From: Pedobacter aquae
GTDB taxonomy: Bacteria > Bacteroidota > Bacteroidia > Sphingobacteriales > Sphingobacteriaceae
Reading direction: 5' to 3'
NCBI RefSeq assembly: GCF_008195825.1
Contig: NZ_CP043329.1
Location: 3,720,001-3,784,000 of the forward strand
Length of the DNA stretch: 64,000 bases
Both the position numbers and the translations under genes were made by a program. The notes below the pieces were generated by a model. The model was not told where the DNA came from. It worked only from the letters and a program-made list of their open reading frames with translations, and did not search any database. Of this stretch, positions 2,735 through 60,269 are shown one piece after another. Each line of letters begins with the position of its first letter. The stretch's first letter is position 1.

Positions 2735-4029
2735 ATGACAGATACTACTTTTAAGCCATCTAAAATGCGCTGGGTCATGATAGGCTTTGCGTTTTTAGCT
2801 ACCGTTTTAAATTATATAGACCGTTTGGCTTTTAATTATTTAAGTGCCGAGGGAGCTTTAAGAGAGCTCATTCCTGATGATGCTTTTGGATACATAACCA
2901 CTGCTTTTTTGTGGCCTACATGGTTTCAAACGGTTTTTCTGGCTTTGCTATAGATAAATTAGGAACCAAATTGGGTTATTCTATTTGTATGGCGTTTTGG
3001 ACTACCGCTGCTATGTTACATGCTTTAGCAAGATTACCATGGCATTTTGGTTTAGCCCGTTTCTTTTTGGGTATTGGCGAGGCGGGTAACTGGCCATCAG
3101 CCATTAAACTAACTAGCGAGTGGTTTCCGCAGAGCGAGCGCTCTACAGCATCGGGTATTTTTAACAGCGGTTCTGCAATAGGAGCTGTAGTTGCCCCGCC
3201 ATTAATTGCCTTTTTAGGTACTGTTTATGGTTGGAAAGCTACTTTTATTATTGTAGGTTCTTTAGGTTATATATGGCTTATTGCTTTTTGGTTTACTTAT
3301 TATACCCCAAAACAAGCCTTAGAAGAAACCAAATTAAGAACCATCCCGGCTAAAAAACTCATCAAAAACAAATTTGTATTAGGTTTTACTTTATCTAAAG
3401 TATTGATGGATCCTGTATGGTATTTCATAACATTTTGGATAGGACGTTATTTGGTTGATGTTCACGGTTGGGATTTAGCCATGATAGGTTGGTTTGCCAT
3501 GATACCTTTTATCTCTGCCGATTTTGGAAATATATTAGGAGGCTTATTTACCCAAACTTTAATTAAAAGAGGCATGGCTGTACCTAAAGCCAGAAAATTA
3601 GCTGTTACCATTTTTGGGCTGATGACCGCTGGCTCATTAATATTAGGGCCATTAATTATTACCTCTCCGGCAATTGCAATAGCTGTTTTAGCAGTAGCAG
3701 GTTTTGGCTACTCTTCTTACACAGCTAATTCTATGGCTTTCCCTGCCGATGTTGTTCCAAAAAATGCTACCGCATCTGTTTGGGGTTTGGCAAGTGTGGG
3801 TTCTGGTTTAGGCGGAGCTATTTTTCAATCTATATCTGGTGTAACGGTAAAGAATTTTTCTGACACTTATGGCTATGCTTCGGCATACAATACCGTGTTT
3901 ATAGGCTATGGCGTTTTAGCGATGTTGGGCTTGTGCGTTGTGCTATTTGTTATAGGGCCTTTGGTAAGAGATGAAGAATTGCATGCTTATGTAAATCAGG
4001 ATAATCCTCAAGAAAATCAATCAAATTAA
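2735..4029 (+). pseudogene. Hexuronate/galactonate MFS transporter, frameshifted
   Basis: A 12-helix major facilitator of the anion:cation symporter type (ExuT/GudP/DgoT group), about 431 residues when repaired. The N-terminus (2735-2910) holds helix 1 with the Asn-Tyr-Ile-Asp-Arg motif typical of this group. The frame breaks at the T6 run 2905-2910; one more T continues into helix 2 (Val-Ala-Tyr-Met-Val) and the Gly-Glu-Ala-Gly-Asn-Trp-Pro motif of the third to fourth helix region. It lies 9 bp after the GH95 gene and 7 bp before the mutarotase, so it is in the same operon. D-galactonate or a hexuronate is the likely cargo because dgo genes follow. Transport would fail if the frameshift is real. 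Confidence 0.8.
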
Positions 4030-4036
4030 ATCTGCC

Positions 4037-4459
4037 ATGTTAAAAACACAACTACTACATCCTGAAATATTAATGGAACTAGGTCGTAACGGACATGGTT
4101 CAAAAATTTTAATTTCTGATGGTAATTTTCCGGTAAATACCTGTACGCCGCAAACGGCTAAAAAGGTTTATTTAAATCTTACCCCAGGCGTTTTAAATGT
4201 TGTTGATGTATTAAAAGTGATTAAAAACTTCATCCCGGTAGAGAAAGCCTACATCATGCAGCCACCAGATGAAACACCACAACCTATCCATCATGAATTT
4301 AAACAAATTCTTGACGAGGATACACCATTTGAAGCCCTAAAAAGATATGAGTTTTATGATATTGCCAAAACACCAGATGTTTGCTTAGCCATAGCTACGG
4401 CAGAGGTAAGGAGGTTTGCTAATATTATTTTAGAAATAGGCGTTATTAGGCCAGAATAA
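4037..4459 (+). CDS. fucU: RbsD/FucU-family sugar mutarotase
   Basis: 140 residues, the normal size for the RbsD/FucU fold, cytosolic. The start shows the family pattern: a Leu-His-Pro-Glu-Ile stretch, Gly-His-Gly-Ser-Lys-Ile, and Ile-Ser-Asp-Gly-Asn-Phe-Pro, with the conserved His and Asp that sit in the pyranose pocket. Known members interconvert the alpha and beta forms of L-fucose or D-ribose; FucU-type length and sequence fit better than RbsD. It sits between the MFS transporter (7 bp) and the aldolase (9 bp). A mutarotase in a galactonate operon suggests a sugar released by GH95 or a galactosidase is being prepared for a stereospecific dehydrogenase. Fucose versus galactose is not decided by the sequence. 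Confidence 0.75.
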   Translation: MLKTQLLHPEILMELGRNGHGSKILISDGNFPVNTCTPQTAKKVYLNLTPGVLNVVDVLKVIKNFIPVEKAYIMQPPDETPQPIHHEFKQILDEDTPFEALKRYEFYDIAKTPDVCLAIATAEVRRFANIILEIGVIRPE

Positions 4460-4468
4460 ATCAGCATC

Positions 4469-5092
4469 ATGCAAACATTAAATCATATATATCAACATAA
4501 AATTGTAGCCATTATCAGAGGTGTTTCCGCCGATAAGGCTAAGGATGTGGCTTTTGCTTTAGCAGAGGGAGGTGTGAAAATTTTAGAAATTACCTTAAAC
4601 TCTCCAAAAGCCTTACAAGTTATAGAACAATTGGCAGATAGTATCGGAAAACAAGTTTTAATAGGCGCAGGTACTGTTTTAGATCCAGAATCTGCTAGAG
4701 CAGCAATTTACGCTGGGGCGAAGTTTATTTTATCGCCAACGGTAGATATCAATACCATACACATGACCAGAAGGCATGGTGCGGTAAGTATTCCTGGCGC
4801 TTATACTCCAACAGAAATTTTAAATGCTTATGCTTGGGGTGGCGATATTGTTAAAGTTTTTCCAGCAAGTGCAGGTGTGGCGTATATCAAGGATGTAAAA
4901 GGGCCTTTACCTCAAATTCCTATCATGCCAACCGGAGGTGTTGGTTTAGATAATATCAAAGAGTTTAAGAAAATTGGTGCTGTGGCTTACGGAATAGGGA
5001 GTTCTTTGGTTGATGCTAAGCAAACCATCAATGACGATTATTTAAAACAATTGACTTCAAAAGCTAAACAGTTTATAGAGGCTGTTCAATAA
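4469..5092 (+). CDS. dgoA: 2-dehydro-3-deoxy-6-phosphogalactonate (KDPGal) aldolase
   Basis: 207 residues, class I KDPG/KDPGal aldolase family (EDA/DgoA), a TIM barrel with a Schiff-base lysine. Visible motifs: Ile-Ile-Arg-Gly near the N-terminus, Glu-Ile-Thr-Leu-Asn-Ser-Pro with the proton-shuttle Glu, Gly-Ala-Gly-Thr-Val-Leu, and the phosphate-binding Pro-Thr-Gly-Gly-Val. A Val-Lys-Val-Phe-Pro-Ala motif carries the lysine. It cleaves the 6-phosphorylated 2-keto-3-deoxy acid to pyruvate and glyceraldehyde-3-phosphate. KDPG and KDPGal aldolases cannot be told apart reliably by eye; the adjacent DgoD and DgoK genes argue for the galactonate substrate. Start chosen at the ATG 9 bp after the mutarotase stop. 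Confidence 0.88.
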
Positions 5093-5106
5093 TATCCATA
5101 TTTAAA

Positions 5107-6255
5107 ATGAAAATTACAGGTTACGAATTATATCAAGTTCCGCCAAGATGGTTATTTCTTAAAATAGAAACCAGTGAAGGTATTGTAGGCTGGGGCGAGC
5201 CCGTTGTTGAAGGTAAAGCAGCCACAGTTAAAGCCGCTGTTCAAGAATTAATGGAAGGCTTAATTGGTAAAGACCCTCAAAATATTGAAGACCATTGGAA
5301 TATGATGTACCGAGCAGGTTTTTATCGTGGTGGTCCTATTTTAATGAGTGCCATTGCCGGTATAGACCAAGCGCTTTGGGATATTAAAGGTAAATTCTAT
5401 AATACGCCAATTTATCAATTATTAGGAGGTAAAGCTCGTGATACCATGAAGGTTTACTCGTGGATAGGTGGCGACCGCCCTGCTGAAGTAGGTACAGCAG
5501 CCAAAGAAATGATAGATAAAGGCTTTAAGGCAGTAAAAATGAATGCTACCGAAGAGCTTCAAATCATAGATACTTATGATAAAATTGATGCTGCCATTGC
5601 TCGTATTGCTGCTGTTAGAGAAGCTGTTGGGCCGGCTGTTGGTATAGGTATAGATTTTCATGGCAGGGTGCACAAACCTATGGCCAAAATTTTAGCTAAA
5701 GAGCTAGAGGCTTACAGACCTATGTTTATAGAAGAACCCGTTTTACCAGAAAATAACGAAGCATTAAGAGAAATTGTCAATTTAACTTCTATTCCTATTG
5801 CTACTGGTGAGCGTATGTTTTCTAGATGGCAGTTTAAAGATTTATTAATTGGTGGTTATGCAGATATTATTCAGCCAGATTTATCCCACGCAGGTGGTAT
5901 AACAGAGTGTAAAAAGATATTCTCTATGGCAGAAGCTTTTGATGTTGCTGTAGCGCCACATTGCCCGCTAGGCCCTATTGCTTTAGCAGCCTGTTTACAG
6001 GTAGATGCCACCAGTTATAATGCTTTTATTCAGGAGCAAAGTTTGGGTATCCACTACAATCAGGGTAGTGATATTTTAGATTATATCGTAGATAAAAATG
6101 TGTTTAAATATGAGGATGGTTATGTTAAAATACCAGACGGACCAGGCCTCGGTATAGAAATAAATGAAGACCACGTAAAAGCTATGGCTAAAGTTGGACA
6201 CAATTGGAAAAACCCCGTTTGGCGTCATCAGGACGGAAGCATAGCAGAGTGGTAA
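5107..6255 (+). CDS. dgoD: D-galactonate dehydratase
   Basis: 382 residues, enolase superfamily (mandelate racemase subgroup). The whole protein follows E. coli DgoD closely: the [10 protein letters not shown] block near residue 78, Asp-Phe-His-Gly-Arg near 190 (first metal ligand Asp and the catalytic His), the Phe-Ile-Glu-Glu-Pro-Val metal Glu, the Thr-Gly-Glu-Arg-Met-Phe-Ser-Arg metal Glu, and Ala-Pro-His-Cys-Pro-Leu-Gly-Pro with the second catalytic His. It ends with the family's Trp-Arg-His-(Gln/Glu)-Asp-x-Ser-x-Ala-Glu-Trp tail. It removes water from D-galactonate to give 2-keto-3-deoxygalactonate. All key residues are present and the frame is intact, unlike the transporter upstream. 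Confidence 0.95.
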
Positions 6256-6385
6256 TCATTAAAAGATAAAAAGGAGGAGTCATAAGCGTTCATTGTTTGA
6301 AGGGTGTATTCATTGGTTTGGTTTAATTAATCTTCTTTCAAGAAATATGTACATTTTGATTTCCTTCTTTTTTTAATTCTCCTAC

Positions 6386-7348
6386 ATGAATAATTTGTTT
6401 TTAAGTTGCGATTGGGGTACATCATCTTTCAGACTACGTTTGATAGATGCTTACGGTTTAAAGGTTTTAGCAGAAGTAAGCAATGCCGAAGGTAATGCTA
6501 GCTTATTCCAGAAATGGAAAGCGGCAGGGGCTGATACAGATAGAAGAACAGATTTTTATCTTTCCTTTTTAAAGGAAAATATTGATAAAATCAGTTCAGA
6601 ATTTGGTAAAAGCTTAGATGGGCTACCAATTATTATTTCTGGTATGGCATCTTCTACGGTAGGCATGCAAGAGCTTCCATACAAAGAGCTTCCTTTTTCT
6701 TTAAACGGTGCCGATTTAAAGGTTTCTCATTTTCAAGCTAACGCAGATTTTTCTCATCCTTTTACCCTAGTTTCTGGTGTTTGCTCTCAAGATGATGTGA
6801 TTAGAGGAGAAGAAATACAACTAGTAGGCTGCCAACCCGATAAGAGAATTAAGGAACAAGTTTTTATCATTCCGGGTACACATTCTAAACACGTTTTTAC
6901 TGTTGATGATAAAGCTGTAGGCTTCTCTACTTACATGACGGGAGAACTTTTCAGCTTATTAAGCAGTCAAAGTATTTTAGCAACAACAGTAGAAAAACAA
7001 GGTATTTTAACAGATGATGAAAATACAGCAGCCTTTAAACAAGGTGTTTTAGATAGCTTTAAAGCTAATTTATTGCATGCTATGTTTTGGGTAAGAACCA
7101 ACCAGTTGTTTAATAAATTTAGTAAAGAGAGCAATTATTACTATTTGAGTGGCTTATTAATTGGTGCCGAGCTGAAAGAATTAACAGGAACAGAAAAGGC
7201 TATAACTTTATTGTCTTCCGGTATCTTAAGCGAGAGCTACTTGTTAGCTTTAGAAACCTTAGGTTTAGCAAAGCAAGTATCACAAAAAAGTGTTGATGAA
7301 GCTATTATTAATGGCCATTATCAGCTTTACATGCTTCATTACCAATAG
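6386..7348 (+). CDS. dgoK: 2-dehydro-3-deoxygalactonokinase
   Basis: 320 residues, DgoK family of the ASKHA kinases. The N-terminus has the phosphate-1 motif Asp-Trp-Gly-Thr-Ser-Ser-Phe-Arg; further on are Ile-Ile-Ser-Gly-Met-Ala-Ser-Ser, Ile-Pro-Gly-Thr-His-Ser-Lys and Thr-Gly-Glu-Leu-Phe, all typical of DgoK. It phosphorylates 2-keto-3-deoxygalactonate, feeding the aldolase at 4469-5092. A 130-bp gap separates it from dgoD. No clear terminator is seen in that gap, so it may be read through or have its own promoter. The start at 6386 gives the family's standard short N-terminus. Confidence 0.93.
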   Translation: MNNLFLSCDWGTSSFRLRLIDAYGLKVLAEVSNAEGNASLFQKWKAAGADTDRRTDFYLSFLKENIDKISSEFGKSLDGLPIIISGMASSTVGMQELPYKELPFSLNGADLKVSHFQANADFSHPFTLVSGVCSQDDVIRGEEIQLVGCQPDKRIKEQVFIIPGTHSKHVFTVDDKAVGFSTYMTGELFSLLSSQSILATTVEKQGILTDDENTAAFKQGVLDSFKANLLHAMFWVRTNQLFNKFSKESNYYYLSGLLIGAELKELTGTEKAITLLSSGILSESYLLALETLGLAKQVSQKSVDEAIINGHYQLYMLHYQ

Positions 7349-7383
7349 AAAATCTTTATTTTCATAGTCTGAAAATAAGATGG

Positions 7384-8385
7384 ATGATATTTAAAGCTCG
7401 CTATTACCTTGTTTTATTAGGATTAATTTGTACATCTTTTGCTCCTAGGCAAGAGATAGTCCAAACTTATCAGATTAATGGTTATACACAAGGTACTACC
7501 TATGCTGTAAAATATTATGCATCTAAAGCATTAGTTTCTGAAGAGGAAATTGAAGTTGTCTTAGCCCAGCTCAACCAATCTTTATCTGTTTATCAGGATA
7601 CATCACTGATAAGCCAATTTAATTTAAGCAAAAGAGGTGTTTTGTTAGATAAACATTTGGGCAAAGTGGTAAAAGCGGCTCAGAAAATAGCTAAAGCCTC
7701 TGCCGGCGCTTTTGATATTACTGTTTTTCCTTTAGTAGAAGCATGGGGTTTTTTAGGAAAAGAAAAGCAGCTACTGCCAGATAGCTTAGCACTACAAAAA
7801 ATATTAAAGAATGTAGGCTACCAGCAATTAATCATCAAAAAAGATAGCTTAATAAAAATTAACCCTGCAGTAAAAATTGATGTTAATGGTATAGCACAAG
7901 GTTACTCTGTAGATGTTCTTGCAGATTTTTTAGAACGTAAAGGCATCCATCACTATATTGTGGAGATAGGCGGCGAGTTAAGAATAAAAGGCAAAAAGCC
8001 TGATGGCTCTTATCCTAAAATTGGAATAGAAGCGCCAAGCTTAGAAGAAAACTCCTTGCAGCAGATTATTATCCCAAAAAAAGGAGCTATCACAACATCT
8101 GGCAGCTATCGTAAATTCATAGAAAGTAAAGGTTTAAAGCAAACACATCTGATAGATGCTAAAACAGGTTATCCTATCAAAAGCAAAAATATTAGTGTAA
8201 CGGTTTATGCTAAAAACGCTATGTTGGCAGATGCCTATGATAATGTTTTGATGGGGATGGAAATAGAAGAAGCTTTCCGCTTTTTAAAAAAACATCCAAA
8301 CTTAGAAGCCTTTTTTATTTACCAAGAAAATGGGATTTTAAAAGATACTGCAACAATTGGCTTTTCTAAATTAATAGCGCCATGA
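7384..8385 (+). CDS. apbE: FAD:protein FMN transferase (ApbE family), exported
   Basis: 333 residues with an N-terminal signal segment ending near Ser-Phe-Ala; no clear lipobox. ApbE features: Gly-Thr-Thr-Tyr near residue 40, the Ser-Val-Tyr-Gln-Asp and Ser-x-Phe-Asn region, Gly-Ala-Phe-Asp-Ile-Thr near 115, Lys-Ile-Asp-Val-Asn-Gly-Ile-Ala-Gln-Gly-Tyr near 175, and a Thr-Ser-Gly-Ser-Tyr block near 240. ApbE proteins move FMN from FAD onto Ser/Thr of flavoproteins such as Nqr/Rnf subunits outside the membrane. It follows dgoK by 35 bp, but no flavoprotein target is nearby; the link with the sugar operon may be positional only. Confidence 0.88.
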   Translation: MIFKARYYLVLLGLICTSFAPRQEIVQTYQINGYTQGTTYAVKYYASKALVSEEEIEVVLAQLNQSLSVYQDTSLISQFNLSKRGVLLDKHLGKVVKAAQKIAKASAGAFDITVFPLVEAWGFLGKEKQLLPDSLALQKILKNVGYQQLIIKKDSLIKINPAVKIDVNGIAQGYSVDVLADFLERKGIHHYIVEIGGELRIKGKKPDGSYPKIGIEAPSLEENSLQQIIIPKKGAITTSGSYRKFIESKGLKQTHLIDAKTGYPIKSKNISVTVYAKNAMLADAYDNVLMGMEIEEAFRFLKKHPNLEAFFIYQENGILKDTATIGFSKLIAP

Positions 8386-56020: not shown

Positions 56021-58900
56021 TTAAGCTGTTTTCTTTACTCTTTTAGGTTTCTCTTTAGTAAATAAATCTGCGGTGTATTTCTCGTACAATTCAAATAGAA
56101 ATTCCATGCGTTTGGCTTCGCTTAAAAAGGGCTGCGGGCGGTACGCCAAATCAACTGCTTTATCTAACTCGTTATGCGCTTTTACTAAAGCTGGAGGCAT
56201 AGTTAATGGGTTGTATAAATTTGCTAAAGAACTGTTAGGAAATTCTGCTCTTACATCTAAAACCTTTTGTGCTTTTTCTTCTATTTGTTGAATTTGTTTT
56301 TCACTTGGATTTTCTGGCCAAGGATAATTATTATAAACAATATCTTTTGAATACCTGTAATCACTTTTTAATCTACCACAAGTTGTTTTGACCCAAGCCA
56401 TATGCATTAAAGACATCAATATTCCAAAGTGATACAAGTTTCCATCTGGTAATATATGACAGCTATTATGTGGTATATTATCTTTTTTAAAGAATGCAAA
56501 TGGAATATATTTTCTATTTTCCGATGTTGTGCTGGGTATTAAAATATAACTTTCGGGATTTCTTATATCTCGAAATTGAGTTGGTTTGAGGGCTAATTTT
56601 CTTGCTCCCTCATCAATACTATTCTCTCGTATTTTTTTTACATTCTTAATTCTATCTAAAACATAAGGCATTTGTTTTATTTCTTCTGGCGAAGCATCAA
56701 CTAACCAAATACACCATCTTTTTTCACCATTAAGAAATTCTTTAGCGCTAATTAATGGTTTAATAAACTTTGATGCTTTTGGTTCCAGTGTTAGAAATGC
56801 ACCTAAATCTTTATCGGAAATTATGAGATTACCTCCATCAACTGGTTTATTCCCCCATGCAATTTTCGGAACATCACATATAGTTTTTTCATTTAATGAT
56901 AATGTGAAATCTTTTCCCTCTACTAAATAAGGATTGATATTTTTAACTCTGATTTCATGAGGCTCACCCTTTATATTCTCATATTCAAATATTCTTTTAT
57001 TATTGGTATCAAAGTTTGCAAAGCCAATGATAACACAATGTACAGCTGCATTTCCTCTCGCTTCATTATTCCAACTGAATGTTCTATGTGCAAAATGTAT
57101 TTTAATATTGTATTTACGGAATAGTAGTTCCCAAAGTATTCCTACTTGTTCTCCTTGAGATATAGAATTTGTAGAAACAAAAGCTACCTTGGTTTTGGTG
57201 TTTTGTATAAACTGTGCCGCTTTTAAATACCAAGCGCAAACATAATCTAAAACTCCAGCACCATTTACACCATTAAAAAGAATAGACATTTCTGCTTTTT
57301 GGTTAACATTCTGATTACTCTTCCCTAAAAATGGAGGGTTTCCTAATATAAAATCAAAGCTGCTATCCTCATTGCCTTTTATACTGCTTAATTTATGTTC
57401 TTGAGACTTATTTGTGAGGATGTTTACCGTATTATATTCGTGTATAGGCTCTTCTAGTATAAAAATATTAGTCTGTTCAGCAATAACATTAATATGGTCT
57501 AGAGGAAAAAGCAAACTATGCCAATTAGTGGTTAATGCATTACCATGTACAATTTTTGCAGCTTTCTCCAATGGCAATCTCGCAAAATACTCCCCAAACT
57601 CATTGCTTATCAGCATATTCATTTGGTGGTCCATCAGCCACATGGCAACTTCGGCAATACGGGCAGGGAATTCTTCGTATTCTATGCCGTACATCATATC
57701 TACATTTAACCAAATAATTGATGCTATACTTGTAGCTAGTTGGTTTTTGTATTGCTCTCTTAAAATTTCTATTTCTAACAGGCGTAACTCTCTATAAGTA
57801 ATCACTAAAAAATTACCACAACCACAAGCAGGGTCTAAAAATTTAAGCTGGCTTATCTTTTTATGAAACTCTTGTAGCTTAGGCCTATTCTTTTTTACAG
57901 CTTCAAACTCTGCGTATAAATCGTCTAGAAAGAGTGGTTTTATCAGCTTAAGGATATTCTTTTCGCTGGTATAATGTGCGCCTAAGTTTCTGCGTTCTTG
58001 CGGATTCATCACACTTTGAAACATAGAGCCAAATATGGCTGGCGAAATCTTACTCCAATCTATATAACAACATTCTAGTAAGCTATTACGCATAGCACTG
58101 TCAAAACTTGCAGAGGGTAGTATTTCTTCAAACAGTTTACCGTTTACATAAGGGAAAGCATTTAGCTGTTCATCAAGATTTTTAAAGCGGTTGGCATGTG
58201 GTGTATTTAAAACCTGAAAGAGTTCTTGAATTTTGGCTGCTAAATCGCTTCCATCTTCATTAGTTCTATCCTCTATAAAGTGTTGGAACTGGTGTTTATC
58301 AAAAATGGTGGTATCTTCTGCAAACAAGCAAAATAATATCCTAACCAAATAAACCTCTAGCGGGTGCCCAGTATAACCAATTTCCTCTAACCTATCATGC
58401 AGCTTACCCATTAATTCGGCTGCTTTAATATTTACAGGGTCTTGCTCTTTATAAATACGTTTTTGGTAACCTGCTATAAATCCAAAATGCTGTACATAGT
58501 TTACAAGTTCATTAAGTTTAAATTCTAGCGTTTTATTTTCTTCGGTATCAAATAACCTAAAATTCTCAAAGTCTGATACTAAAATGTATTTAGGTAATTC
58601 ATGCTCTTTTAAGCCATGTATATAATCTTTTGCTTGTATAAATGCTTTATCTAAGTTTTTGCCCTTAGATTTCATTTCTATTAAGATGGTACCTTTCCAA
58701 AGCAAATCTATATAACCATCCGCATCATTTAGTTTTTTAACCCGATGCTCAAAAGTTCCTACTCTTTTACGAGTAATGCCAAATACATTAAAAAATGCTT
58801 CAATAAAAGATTTTGCCTCGGCTTCTTCATTAAATGTATCAGCCCATTCTTTAGAGAATAGAACGGCTCTTTCTTTAATTTCATTCCAGCTTAATGCCAT
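56021..58900 (-). CDS. MmeI-type single-chain restriction-modification enzyme
   Basis: 959 residues, near the size of MmeI (919). N-terminal nuclease: Asp65, then Glu75-Met-Lys77, which is the Asp-x9-Glu-x-Lys spacing of MmeI. A helical linker (about 150-300) is followed by a gamma-type N6-adenine methyltransferase: motif I Asp-Pro-Ala-Cys-Gly-Cys-Gly-Asn-Phe near 355 and motif IV Asn-Pro-Pro-Phe near 528. The target-recognition region fills about 640-870. Enzymes of this type (type IIL) methylate one strand and cut about 20 bases away, with modification and cleavage in one chain. No partner genes are present, consistent with that. The recognition site cannot be read here. Confidence 0.87.
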   Translation of the reverse strand: MALSWNEIKERAVLFSKEWADTFNEEAEAKSFIEAFFNVFGITRKRVGTFEHRVKKLNDADGYIDLLWKGTILIEMKSKGKNLDKAFIQAKDYIHGLKEHELPKYILVSDFENFRLFDTEENKTLEFKLNELVNYVQHFGFIAGYQKRIYKEQDPVNIKAAELMGKLHDRLEEIGYTGHPLEVYLVRILFCLFAEDTTIFDKHQFQHFIEDRTNEDGSDLAAKIQELFQVLNTPHANRFKNLDEQLNAFPYVNGKLFEEILPSASFDSAMRNSLLECCYIDWSKISPAIFGSMFQSVMNPQERRNLGAHYTSEKNILKLIKPLFLDDLYAEFEAVKKNRPKLQEFHKKISQLKFLDPACGCGNFLVITYRELRLLEIEILREQYKNQLATSIASIIWLNVDMMYGIEYEEFPARIAEVAMWLMDHQMNMLISNEFGEYFARLPLEKAAKIVHGNALTTNWHSLLFPLDHINVIAEQTNIFILEEPIHEYNTVNILTNKSQEHKLSSIKGNEDSSFDFILGNPPFLGKSNQNVNQKAEMSILFNGVNGAGVLDYVCAWYLKAAQFIQNTKTKVAFVSTNSISQGEQVGILWELLFRKYNIKIHFAHRTFSWNNEARGNAAVHCVIIGFANFDTNNKRIFEYENIKGEPHEIRVKNINPYLVEGKDFTLSLNEKTICDVPKIAWGNKPVDGGNLIISDKDLGAFLTLEPKASKFIKPLISAKEFLNGEKRWCIWLVDASPEEIKQMPYVLDRIKNVKKIRENSIDEGARKLALKPTQFRDIRNPESYILIPSTTSENRKYIPFAFFKKDNIPHNSCHILPDGNLYHFGILMSLMHMAWVKTTCGRLKSDYRYSKDIVYNNYPWPENPSEKQIQQIEEKAQKVLDVRAEFPNSSLANLYNPLTMPPALVKAHNELDKAVDLAYRPQPFLSEAKRMEFLFELYEKYTADLFTKEKPKRVKKTA

Positions 58901-59002: not shown

Positions 59003-59040
59003 TAAAAAATCCTTGCAAATTTATCATCTACAAGGATTTA
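59003..59040 (-). terminator. Terminator after tRNA-Ser
   Basis: Minus strand: AATCCTTG (59031-59038) and CAAGGATT (59008-59015) form an 8-bp stem with a 15-base loop, followed by a T run (59004-59009). It lies 14 bp after the tRNA 3' end. Confidence 0.8.
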
Positions 59041-59052
59041 TAAGATATTTTG

Positions 59053-59139
59053 CGGAGAAAGAGGGATTCGAACCCTCGGTACCGTTGCCAGTACACCAGC
59101 TTTCCAAGCTGGCTCATTCGACCACTCTGACATCTCTCC
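59053..59139 (-). tRNA. tRNA-Ser (anticodon GGA)
   Basis: 87 nt on the minus strand. Acceptor arm GGAGAGA pairs with TTTCTCC with one G-T wobble; long variable arm as in class II tRNAs; anticodon stem CCAGC/GCTGG with loop TTGGAAA, anticodon GGA at 59103-59105; T-loop TTCGAAT. No CCA is encoded. The 5' end is one base from the stop codon of the GIY-YIG gene upstream. It appears functional and is the intact partner of the broken copy at 59399-59512. Confidence 0.97.
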
Positions 59140-59140
59140 G

Positions 59141-59383
59141 TTAAATAATACCATTTTGTTTAAGGTAATGGTAACCTTCAATTGATTTGTAAAACATTTC
59201 TCTTTTAAATGCTTCACTTCTTGTGTTATGCACTTCAAAAAAGTGTAACTCTAAAGGTCTTCTATTTTTTGTAGACTTAACATCTCCTTTATTATGCTTG
59301 ATTAACCTATTACTCAAATTTATAGTACTTCCATAATAGTACCGGTTATCTTTAAAGCTCTTAAGAATATAACTATAAAACAC
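59141..59383 (-). CDS. Small GIY-YIG nuclease wedged between tRNA-Ser copies
   Basis: 80 residues from a GTG at 59383; no ATG is available, and a longer frame would run back through the tRNA fragment, which I reject. GIY-YIG features: Phe-Tyr-Ser-Tyr-Ile-Leu-Lys-Ser, then Asp-Asn-Arg-Tyr-Tyr-Tyr-Gly-Ser-Thr, the conserved Arg in Leu-Ser-Asn-Arg-Leu, His-Asn, and the metal Glu in Arg-Glu-Met-Phe-Tyr-Lys-Ser. The fold is that of UvrC N-termini and homing endonucleases. The stop codon lies one base before the intact tRNA-Ser, and the coding part begins 15 bp after the T-loop of the broken tRNA. A mobile-nuclease role is inferred from that position. Confidence 0.8.
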   Translation of the reverse strand: MFYSYILKSFKDNRYYYGSTINLSNRLIKHNKGDVKSTKNRRPLELHFFEVHNTRSEAFKREMFYKSIEGYHYLKQNGII

Positions 59384-59421
59384 TTTAATTATAAATTTAT
59401 TCGAACCCTCGGTACCGTTGC

Positions 59422-59441
59422 TCCTAAGGAGCCCTGCGGGC
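59422..59441. repeat. 20-bp double-hairpin insert, copy 1
   Basis: Minus strand GCCC-GCA-GGGC then TCC-TTA-GGA: two tiny adjacent hairpins with three-base loops. It is absent from the intact tRNA. Same design as copy 2. Confidence 0.85.
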
Positions 59442-59457
59442 CAGTACACAAGCTTTC

Positions 59458-59477
59458 TCCAAAGGAGTCCTTCGGAC
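59458..59477. repeat. 20-bp double-hairpin insert, copy 2
   Basis: Minus strand GTCC-GAA-GGAC then TCC-TTT-GGA, splitting the anticodon of the broken tRNA. Stem bases differ from copy 1 in compensating pairs (GTCC/GGAC against GCCC/GGGC), so the hairpin shape is kept while the sequence changed. Confidence 0.85.
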
Positions 59478-59621
59478 CAAGCTGGCTCATTCGACCACTC
59501 TGACATCTCTCCGGTTTCCCCTTTCGGGGGATGCAAAACTAACTAATTCTTTCAATTTTACAGAACAATATCTCCTAATTTAAACGTTAAGCTTAAATTA
59601 GCTTTCTAAAATTTTCAAGAT

Positions 59622-60269
59622 ATGGATTATCAGGCTTATTTATTCGATTTAAACGGAACCATTATAGATGATATGCAGTTTCATGCCAGAGCATGGTATG
59701 ATATTTTAAGTAACGATTTAAAATCAGATATCACTTTTGACGAGACCGTTTTACAGATGTACGGCAAAAACCAGGAATTGCTAGAGCGTGTTTTTGGTAA
59801 AGGTTATTTCACTCAAGAACAAATTGATAAGCTTTCTATGGAAAAAGAACAGCGTTACCAAGCCGAGTATAAAGCCCACATGAAACTTATTGATGGTTTA
59901 GGCGATTATTTAGAAAATGCTAAATCCAAAGGTATAAAAATGGCTATAGGCTCGGCCGCTATTCCATTTAATATTGATTTTATTTTGGATAACCTACACA
60001 TCCGCGAATATTTCCCTGTTATTGTAAGTGCAAATGATGTTGCATTAAGTAAACCACACCCAGAAACATTTTTAAAAGGAGCAGAGCTTCTAGGGGTAGC
60101 CCCAAGCGCCTGCGTAGTTTTTGAAGATGCACCAAAAGGAGTAGAAGCAGCACAAAATGCCAATATGAAAAGTGTTGTACTCACCACCCTACATGAACCT
60201 GCTGATTTTAACGCTTACAGTAACATTTTAACTTTTACAGCTAACTATCAAAACCTAAATATTTTTTAA
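59622..60269 (+). CDS. HAD-family phosphatase (beta-phosphoglucomutase-like)
   Basis: 215 residues, cap type C1 HAD fold. Motif I is Phe-Asp9-Leu-Asn11-Gly-Thr: the nucleophile Asp9 is present but the second Asp, the usual acid/base, is Asn. Ser-x motif II is in Gly-Ser-Ala-Ala, Lys in Ser-Lys-Pro-His-Pro, and motif IV is Phe-Glu-Asp-Ala-Pro-Lys-Gly. The Asp-to-Asn change would be expected to slow dephosphorylation or favour phosphoryl transfer. It precedes araB by 116 bp on the same strand; such genes often accompany sugar operons in this phylum. The substrate is not known. Confidence 0.85.
   Translation: MDYQAYLFDLNGTIIDDMQFHARAWYDILSNDLKSDITFDETVLQMYGKNQELLERVFGKGYFTQEQIDKLSMEKEQRYQAEYKAHMKLIDGLGDYLENAKSKGIKMAIGSAAIPFNIDFILDNLHIREYFPVIVSANDVALSKPHPETFLKGAELLGVAPSACVVFEDAPKGVEAAQNANMKSVVLTTLHEPADFNAYSNILTFTANYQNLNIF

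Follow-up and report, generated by a model that had tools for sequence, protein, structure and literature searches.

A small GIY-YIG nuclease gene lodged between a broken and an intact copy of tRNA-Ser(GGA) in Pedobacter aquae looks like a selfish gene that copies itself into tRNA genes and leaves a working tRNA behind. The finding is real and wider than can be seen from the window alone, i.e., from the 64,000 nucleotides of contig NZ_CP043329.1 (positions 3,720,001 to 3,784,000, forward strand) analyzed as one stretch; intronless homing at tRNA genes is itself already known. The locus is one of a set of widespread miniature elements in bacterial tRNA genes, whose nuclease lineages tend to keep to one kind of tRNA.

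All parts of the locus lie on the minus strand and are given here in window coordinates, in the direction of transcription:

59513..59632, minus strand: upstream flank of the tRNA unit, identical at 117 of 120 bases to the empty site of relative G007 (locus L056)
59401..59512, minus strand: 5' remnant of tRNA-Ser(GGA), tRNA positions 1-72 (GGGTTCGA), broken in the T-loop and carrying two inserts
59457..59476, minus strand: insert 1, a 20-bp double hairpin (TCCGAAGGACTCCTTTGGAG) between tRNA positions 36 and 37, anticodon region
59421..59440, minus strand: insert 2, a 20-bp double hairpin (CCCGCAGGGCTCCTTAGGAG) between tRNA positions 52 and 53, variable arm
59141..59383, minus strand: GIY-YIG nuclease gene, 80 amino acids, single domain (PF01541, 46.2 bits, E 5.9e-12)
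59052..59139, minus strand: intact tRNA-Ser(GGA) (ARAGORN; Rfam RF00005, 56.9 bits)
59003..59040, minus strand: terminator-like hairpin and T-run of the tRNA unit, read from the sequence and an alignment

Without its inserts the remnant measures 72 nt and matches the intact copy at 71 of these 72 positions, and the intact tRNA aligned to two stretches of the remnant with E-values of 2e-15 and 1e-7, which excludes chance. Each insert consists of two abutting stem-triloop-stem hairpins, its site uncertain by one base. The remnant ends 17 bp from the nuclease frame, for which we infer a GTG start at 59383 by alignment to relatives (the frame stays open upstream, through the remnant, to a TTG at 59536), and the stop codon, ending at 59141, is separated from the intact tRNA by one base. 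ARAGORN, Rfam, and Pfam thus bore out, at the same place, the claim of a first-pass annotation made from the DNA letters that a GIY-YIG gene sits between a broken and an intact tRNA-Ser; the order it described also holds, its 15-bp spacer has to be corrected to 17 bp, and the two 20-bp inserts had escaped it. It had further described a unit of about 350 bp without an integrase, and indeed the space between the two tRNA parts, in a unit of about 0.35 kb, fits only one gene, the GIY-YIG frame. The same succession of 5' remnant with double hairpin, nuclease, and intact tRNA was found at tRNA-Ser(GGA) in Mucilaginibacter and Daejeonella. The terminator-like hairpin resembles the one behind the empty tRNA of G007. 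In the stretch read beyond its tRNA, G007 differs: a 959-aa frame at window positions 56021-58900, restriction-modification-like by eye (methylase-type motif), lies downstream of the tRNA and may be a separate insertion.

Several familiar kinds of element could be set aside at this stage. As at tRNA-site integrative elements, part of the tRNA recurs as direct repeats on both sides of the insert and one tRNA copy is complete, but such an element with a tyrosine or serine integrase was rejected for want of the integrase. A group I or group II intron in the tRNA was likewise rejected: at the Rfam gathering threshold the window gave tRNA only and no intron RNA match, and among seven loci searched at that threshold six gave tRNA, one (L229) nothing, and none an intron. 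A phage or plasmid origin was rejected as well, as the corresponding searches returned only GIY-YIG proteins of <60% identity (18 and 4 records); two scans of viral contigs, run with two single proteins, found no relative.

The window copy is not alone in its genome (G000). A Pfam search yielded 14 GIY-YIG matches, of which the two within long frames, of 613 and 287 aa, were left aside. Eight copies with equal scores are arrayed in tandem, as 358-bp units, beside tRNA-Val(TAC), the outermost one being set apart by about 1.3 kb that looks insertion sequence-like by eye. Within this array (L015, positions 3300-8000), each unit pairs a GIY-YIG gene with a tRNA-Val remnant that has a palindrome in place of its anticodon arm, and the stop codon of the nuclease falls inside the remnant. 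Single copies occur at tRNA-Arg(CCT), at tRNA-Ser(GCT), and at tRNA-Ser(GGA), the last being that of the window, and one further copy lies amid REP-like palindromes with no tRNA found nearby. Every tRNA-linked case in this genome comes with extra, incomplete tRNA copies in which hairpins replace cloverleaf arms or sit inside them. For the anticodons GGA and GCT, the only serine tRNAs that turned up are those of the two cassettes (own genome, matches ≥80 bp, ARAGORN-checked, from a listing in which 150 of 393 candidates were scored). A weak 112-bp tRNA match of 35.2 bits without an ARAGORN call (L229, positions 229-340; G000:C1:3386428-3386539) was set aside on reading; it is possibly an odd class II tRNA or a tRNA-like RNA.

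To gauge how far the association reaches, loci were collected by protein similarity alone, from overlapping sets of genomes in the genus (18 searched, 13 with a match), the order (61, 44), and the phylum (99, 63), the matches including a sister clade described below. Together with one scan of named genomes, these searches provided 151 loci (one place counted twice), which are mostly high-scoring matches and a non-random draw with many related rows, so that the counts below are not independent. The sister clade forms one branch of the nuclease tree (support 93) and comprises 27 distinct loci, a number that leaves out L202, the same place as L132, while the tree and the association tables include it (28); the tRNA-linked group comprises 123 loci, all outside that clade. 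Of the 123 tRNA-linked loci, 111 had a whole or fragmentary tRNA gene at most 400 bp away on their own strand vs. 1 of the 27 sister-clade loci (Fisher p = 7e-19), leaving 12 loci of the group with no tRNA evidence within this distance. For 95 of the 123, an intact tRNA (ARAGORN, odd calls included) lay within 200 bp on the same strand, and for one on the opposite strand; a random gene of the P. aquae genome has a chance of about 0.4% of lying within 200 bp of a same-strand tRNA. Judged by the nearest tRNA and with artefact labels excluded, 22 anticodons were represented, several of them for Ser (four), Arg (four), Pro (three), Leu (two), and Gly (two), along with Val, Met, Ala, Asp, Asn, Cys, and Phe tRNAs. 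Named hosts included Mucilaginibacter, Daejeonella, a Balneolaceae bacterium, and a Chlorobiota bacterium, the same-strand tRNA evidence in the Chlorobiota copy being a short 3' fragment only. A copy from Gottesmanbacteria had no tRNA within 400 bp, and four lower-scoring HAD hits (L068-L071) were dropped from the Ser(GGA) survey.

Next, we asked whether the nucleases follow their tRNAs or their hosts. The tree was built from 151 loci (146 rows, 75 alignment columns, matches of <60 residues left out) and has many open forks. Clustering of labels was evaluated against 300 shuffles after thinning to a single row for each combination of host genus and tRNA label (74 rows, with unlabelled rows and one “Stop” row removed): anticodon labels required 39 changes on the tree (shuffles: mean 60, lowest 54) and amino acid labels 28 (mean 53, lowest 48), compared to 42 for host families (mean 48, lowest 45). 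Two ARAGORN labels, “Lys” for L015 and “Stop” for L034, are artefacts, both being Val loci by sequence, and that of L015 stood uncorrected in this test. The nuclease tree hence displays strong clustering by tRNA identity and weak clustering by host family, i.e., it does not simply track the host; exact agreement with the host tree was what the first-pass annotation had said would make mobility unlikely. A single clade of the full tree, free of other labels (support 87), gathers 16 of the 19 serine rows with four anticodons, three serine rows being placed elsewhere, and 13 of the 14 Asn rows fall into one clade of 14. A Ser(GGA) clade of seven (support 97) unites the window with two Sphingobacteriaceae, to which its protein is 75 and 72% identical; the identity to four own-family Ser(GGA) members is 72–74%.

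The nuclease is under purifying selection: dN/dS was 0.04–0.15 in 9 of the 10 pairs that gave a value and 0.44 in the remaining one, with five further pairs saturated. The conserved GIY-YIG residues are present, and the columns of Y8, Y19, G21, R29, H33, and E65 are invariant across 18 rows. AlphaFold2 returned one compact domain (mean pLDDT 96.3). Profile searches identified the UPF0213 structures 1YWL (E 7.8e-13) and 1ZG2 (E 4e-12), then SLX1 (best E 2.3e-5) and, weakly, I-TevI; Foldseek likewise placed 1ZG2 and Slx1 at the top, with a best E-value of only 1.3e-3. The protein is therefore a single-domain, Slx1/UPF0213-like GIY-YIG protein. GIY-YIG enzymes are DNA nucleases, and SLX1 acts on branched DNA. 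Homing enzymes usually carry a separate DNA-binding domain, and the confident one-domain model of the 80-aa window protein contains none, which counts against homing.

The geometry of the tRNA remnants was examined in the 100 of 123 loci with an intact same-strand tRNA within 400 bp, by aligning that tRNA to both flanks with inserts allowed; only tRNAs found in the same locus set were used. This search recovered 113 remnants in 88 loci. When the intact tRNA lay behind the nuclease, all 19 remnants ahead of the gene began at the tRNA 5' end and none reached the 3' end, and two more remnants followed the gene. When the intact tRNA lay ahead, 53 of 58 remnants after the gene reached the 3' end, and 34 more preceded it (27 starting at the 5' end, seven reaching the 3' end); in 25 of the 67 loci with the intact copy in front, remnants occurred on both sides. 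Overall, the nuclease usually has a left tRNA part on one side and a right part on the other, one of the two being complete, as expected if a unit inserts together with a replacement part or if a tRNA-nuclease unit is duplicated in tandem. At least two near-full-length nuclease frames were present in 17 of the 123 loci. The layout of 5' remnant, nuclease, and intact tRNA, put forward by the first-pass annotation as the product of an insertion into the T-loop, describes the window correctly, but relatives are often mirror-image or tandem, in several configurations. Nor does the T-loop survive as a single insertion point: in the 19 loci of the window layout, 5' remnants end anywhere from tRNA position 25 to 82, a scatter on which we rejected one fixed cut site.

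Hairpin inserts are a recurrent feature of these remnants. Inserts of 8 to 80 nt occurred in 61 loci, 92 in total (longer ones and those with masked bases were dropped, and some long inserts that were kept resemble artefacts of the alignment), and by a crude assignment from tRNA position, 25 of them fall in the D region, 32 in the anticodon region, 6 in the variable region, and 29 in the T region. Two abutting triloop hairpins were found in 22 of the 68 inserts of 15–50 nt vs. 3 of 1360 shuffled sequences, a count that excludes the 24 of 92 inserts outside this length range. Serine-type cassettes, which supply 24 of the 68 inserts, hold 21 of the 22 double hairpins, some rows being near-copies. 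The second stems vary (CTCC/GGAG, CCCC/GGGG, TTCC/GGAA, TCCC/GGGA, TCAC/GTGA), i.e., the structure is kept while the sequence changes, which argues against plain decay and suggests a function or a hairpin-making process. The type of insert 1 recurs at the same place in the anticodon region of Ser(GGA) cassettes L049, L108, and L111, while that of insert 2 was found at its place in the variable arm in none of the other loci compared. Hairpins sit in the T-loop of relatives L135, L136, L138, L140, and L174, and the window remnant also breaks in the T-loop. In the P. aquae genome, the 19-base pattern of insert 1 (≤1 mismatch) occurs at one place, this remnant, with no dispersed copies; an invasion of dead tRNA copies by dispersed REP-like hairpins was accordingly rejected for insert 1.

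The sister clade offers a different setting for a related nuclease. A repeat of ≥13 bp shared between the two 250-bp flanks was found at 22 of its 27 loci vs. 4 of 518 control positions in the same loci, the 13-bp limit having been picked after inspection of the table (11 bp: 22/27 vs. 20/518; 16 bp: 19/27 vs. 3/518). Flanked loci include L016 (positions 1300-2600; own genome, about G000:C1:2666800-2668100) and most of L038, L039, L042, L043, L127, L128, L132, L133, L203-L213, and L215-L221. The palindrome CTGAGCGGAGTCGAAG (≤1 mismatch) is present in 79 copies in the P. aquae genome, 16 of them around its one sister-clade gene, and a second palindrome, CCTGCCTGTCCGGTAGGCAGG, in five copies, all beside that gene. 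Another dense CTGAGCGGAGTCGAAG array, of 21 copies in blocks, lies at G000:C1:2638822-2641283 without any of the 14 GIY-YIG matches. RAYT genes encode a Y1 (HUH) transposase and are flanked by REP palindromes whose copies are dispersed in the genome; from its sequence context, the sister clade looks like a RAYT-like gene-repeat pair built on a GIY-YIG nuclease. Membership of the window itself in REP/RAYT was rejected, its protein being GIY-YIG rather than Y1 (HUH) and its flanking hairpin not dispersed.

These observations raise an alternative to classical homing, in which small GIY-YIG proteins recognise hairpin or cruciform DNA and copying is mediated by hairpins: one clade would act with REP-like palindromes and the other would use a tRNA gene, whose cloverleaf could extrude, as its “repeat”. 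The repeats around sister-clade genes, the dispersal of CTGAGCGGAGTCGAAG, the branched-DNA nuclease SLX1 among the nearest solved structures, and the excess of double hairpins in remnant inserts over shuffled sequences all fit this scenario. Nonetheless we consider it unlikely, as the hairpin in the window remnant has no scattered copies in the genome, clustering by tRNA species points to recognition of a sequence, and all double hairpins but one are confined to serine cassettes.

Whether the cassettes come and go can be examined at orthologous sites, which we read across the genus via marker genes beside three tRNAs. Among 13 Ser(GGA) sites, one is filled (the window), seven are empty, one is a relic, i.e., a hairpin-bearing 5' remnant beside an intact tRNA with the nuclease absent, and four have no tRNA adjoining the marker. 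The 15 Arg(CCT) sites comprise six filled (one with an internal stop), one relic, and seven empty, while at one further site the contig ends inside the remnant; of the 17 Ser(GCT) sites, four are filled (one with a truncated nuclease) and 13 empty. The Ser(GGA) site is empty in all three genomes nearest by marker protein (94–97% identity). Empty orthologous sites, which the first-pass annotation had named as a check on mobility, are thus present at all three tRNAs, and with the tRNA association and the grouping of the tree by tRNA, its core idea of a minimal tRNA-targeting unit is well supported.

The alleles of the tRNA add a further hint. The intact tRNA of the window shows no mismatch over 88 positions to G002 and G009 but 12 of 88 to G003, G004, and G007, even though the upstream flank agrees with G007 at 117 of 120 bases. 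Co-conversion of the tRNA along with the nuclease gene would be the simplest account of this difference, although it may instead reflect an older polymorphism. The remnant carries the allele of the intact copy and differs like it from the nearest relatives, so that it is probably not the severed 5' part of the host's old gene, as had been proposed; that insert 1 recurs in the Ser(GGA) cassettes of further genomes, at an unchanged position in the anticodon region, also speaks against mere debris. No such swap was seen at the own-genome Arg(CCT) site, where the intact tRNA shows no difference from its counterparts in empty G007 and G003 (in contrast to G004), or at Ser(GCT), where the tRNA is identical in filled G000, G003, and G007 and in empty G004. 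Since filled and empty genomes share the same tRNA, a nuclease that cuts this tRNA should cut its own host too. How a retained tRNA escapes has also been asked for the phage nuclease SegB, for which inefficient cutting of donor alleles is one answer, according to the paper (PMC13096335).

Taken together, these patterns lead us to regard the locus as probably, though with real room for doubt, a minimal selfish cassette that homes into tRNA genes, with cleavage and movement as the conjectural steps. Such a cassette would consist of the nuclease gene, a working tRNA copy and, on the other side, a hairpin-broken fragment of the same tRNA. The nuclease would nick or cut the resident tRNA gene, and flanking tRNA sequences would then act as homology arms in repair, so that nuclease gene and tRNA copy overwrite the target; the process would amount to intronless homing with co-conversion. 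The host would survive through the complete tRNA supplied inside its old tRNA transcription unit. The hairpins of the fragment probably block tRNA function, re-cutting, or a recombination with the intact copy that would delete the gene. Because its tRNA seems to be the sole one of its kind, the cassette could not simply be lost whole. Cuts within the repeats may also yield tandem arrays, and once drive stops, the nuclease would decay to the relic state.

Part of this scheme has precedents. Co-conversion of flanks is described for free-standing homing nucleases (PMC2988022). SegB, a free-standing GIY-YIG homing endonuclease of T-even phages, cuts inside tRNA genes in phage T6, with a preferred motif RAWTSGAAC (23/83 sites), and by way of recombination causes a tRNA-Tyr-segB unit to be amplified in tandem (PMC13096335). 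The reverse complement of the motif, GTTCSAWTY, can be read as the T-loop of many tRNA genes, and since the window remnant breaks and the hairpins of several relatives sit in this same loop, the analogy would favor homing into tRNA genes.

The same precedent can be turned toward a host or defense function, in which tRNA molecules or foreign tRNA genes are the substrate of the nuclease and the linked tRNA is a protected substitute, granting immunity or a supply of decoys much as SegB amplifies tRNA-Tyr in T6. The gene does lie between tRNA sequences and follows the old tRNA flank, the one Ser(GGA) tRNA identified belongs to the cassette, and SegB ties together a nuclease, tRNA dosage, and escape from defense (PMC13096335). 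However, the sites are often empty, relics and broken nucleases occur, and GIY-YIG enzymes are known DNA nucleases, which makes such a function quite improbable. A shade less probable again are old tandem tRNA duplications, inherited vertically with the nuclease as a passenger and one tRNA copy decaying. Tandem arrays would agree with this account, as would the nearly constant same-strand placement of nuclease and tRNA and a 40-bp host flank that is present twice at Arg(CCT) in the P. aquae genome and once in empty G007, which looks from the sequence like an in-place tandem duplication. Yet filled and empty sites are patchy among close relatives, the tree tracks the tRNA more than the host, the window protein is equally close to two Sphingobacteriaceae (72, 75%) and to the own-family Ser(GGA) members, the supposed passenger is under purifying selection, and the window carries an allele swap. 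Given the doubled 40-bp flank at Arg(CCT), tandem duplication may still have been one step in the origin of homing cassettes.

Compared to known systems, the window type shares with SegB a stand-alone GIY-YIG gene among tRNA genes and outside introns, as well as tandem tRNA-nuclease units. It differs in being chromosomal in bacteria, about 0.35 kb in size, and provided with its own tRNA, in its hairpin-broken duplicate tRNA fragments and its lineages tied to tRNA species, and in a protein of 80 aa without an extra DNA-binding domain. Size, fold, and conserved residues are common to UPF0213/Slx1-like proteins and the window nuclease, from which the tRNA linkage and the duplicate tRNA fragments set the window type apart. 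Fungal mitochondrial endonuclease genes can carry a replacement gene part, as at atp6 of Allomyces; there too, a nuclease sits in an essential gene with a replacement for the severed part, but the target is an organelle protein gene rather than bacterial chromosomal tRNA genes. With REP/REPIN-RAYT systems, the sister clade shares a DNA-processing gene, short flanking palindromes, and dispersed copies, but it encodes a GIY-YIG protein instead of a Y1 transposase, and the clade of the window is flanked by tRNA sequence. Among the literature matches listed, with few subscription journals covered, no description of tRNA-linked GIY-YIG cassettes in bacterial chromosomes was recognised by title or start of abstract, and likewise none of GIY-YIG genes with REP-like repeats.

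A broader reading, which we put forward tentatively and hold to be somewhat less probable than not, is that a whole class of miniature mobile DNA with hairpin-forming “ends” is driven by small Slx1-like GIY-YIG nucleases. One branch would seed REP-like palindromes, as a RAYT system without a Y1 transposase, and the other would use tRNA genes as ends, its lineages tied to tRNA species, rewriting resident alleles and leaving the host dependent on it for that tRNA. If tRNA-homing cassettes are what they appear to be, selfish genes of ~350 bp would repeatedly overwrite essential tRNA genes across much of a bacterial phylum and would rank among the smallest autonomous mobile units. The sequence, copy number, and transcription-unit layout of tRNA genes would then partly reflect homing rather than the needs of translation, and the cassettes would provide short nucleases whose choice of target is readable from phylogeny. 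They would also bear on the role of UPF0213-like proteins and on the spread of REP-like repeats where no RAYT is known.
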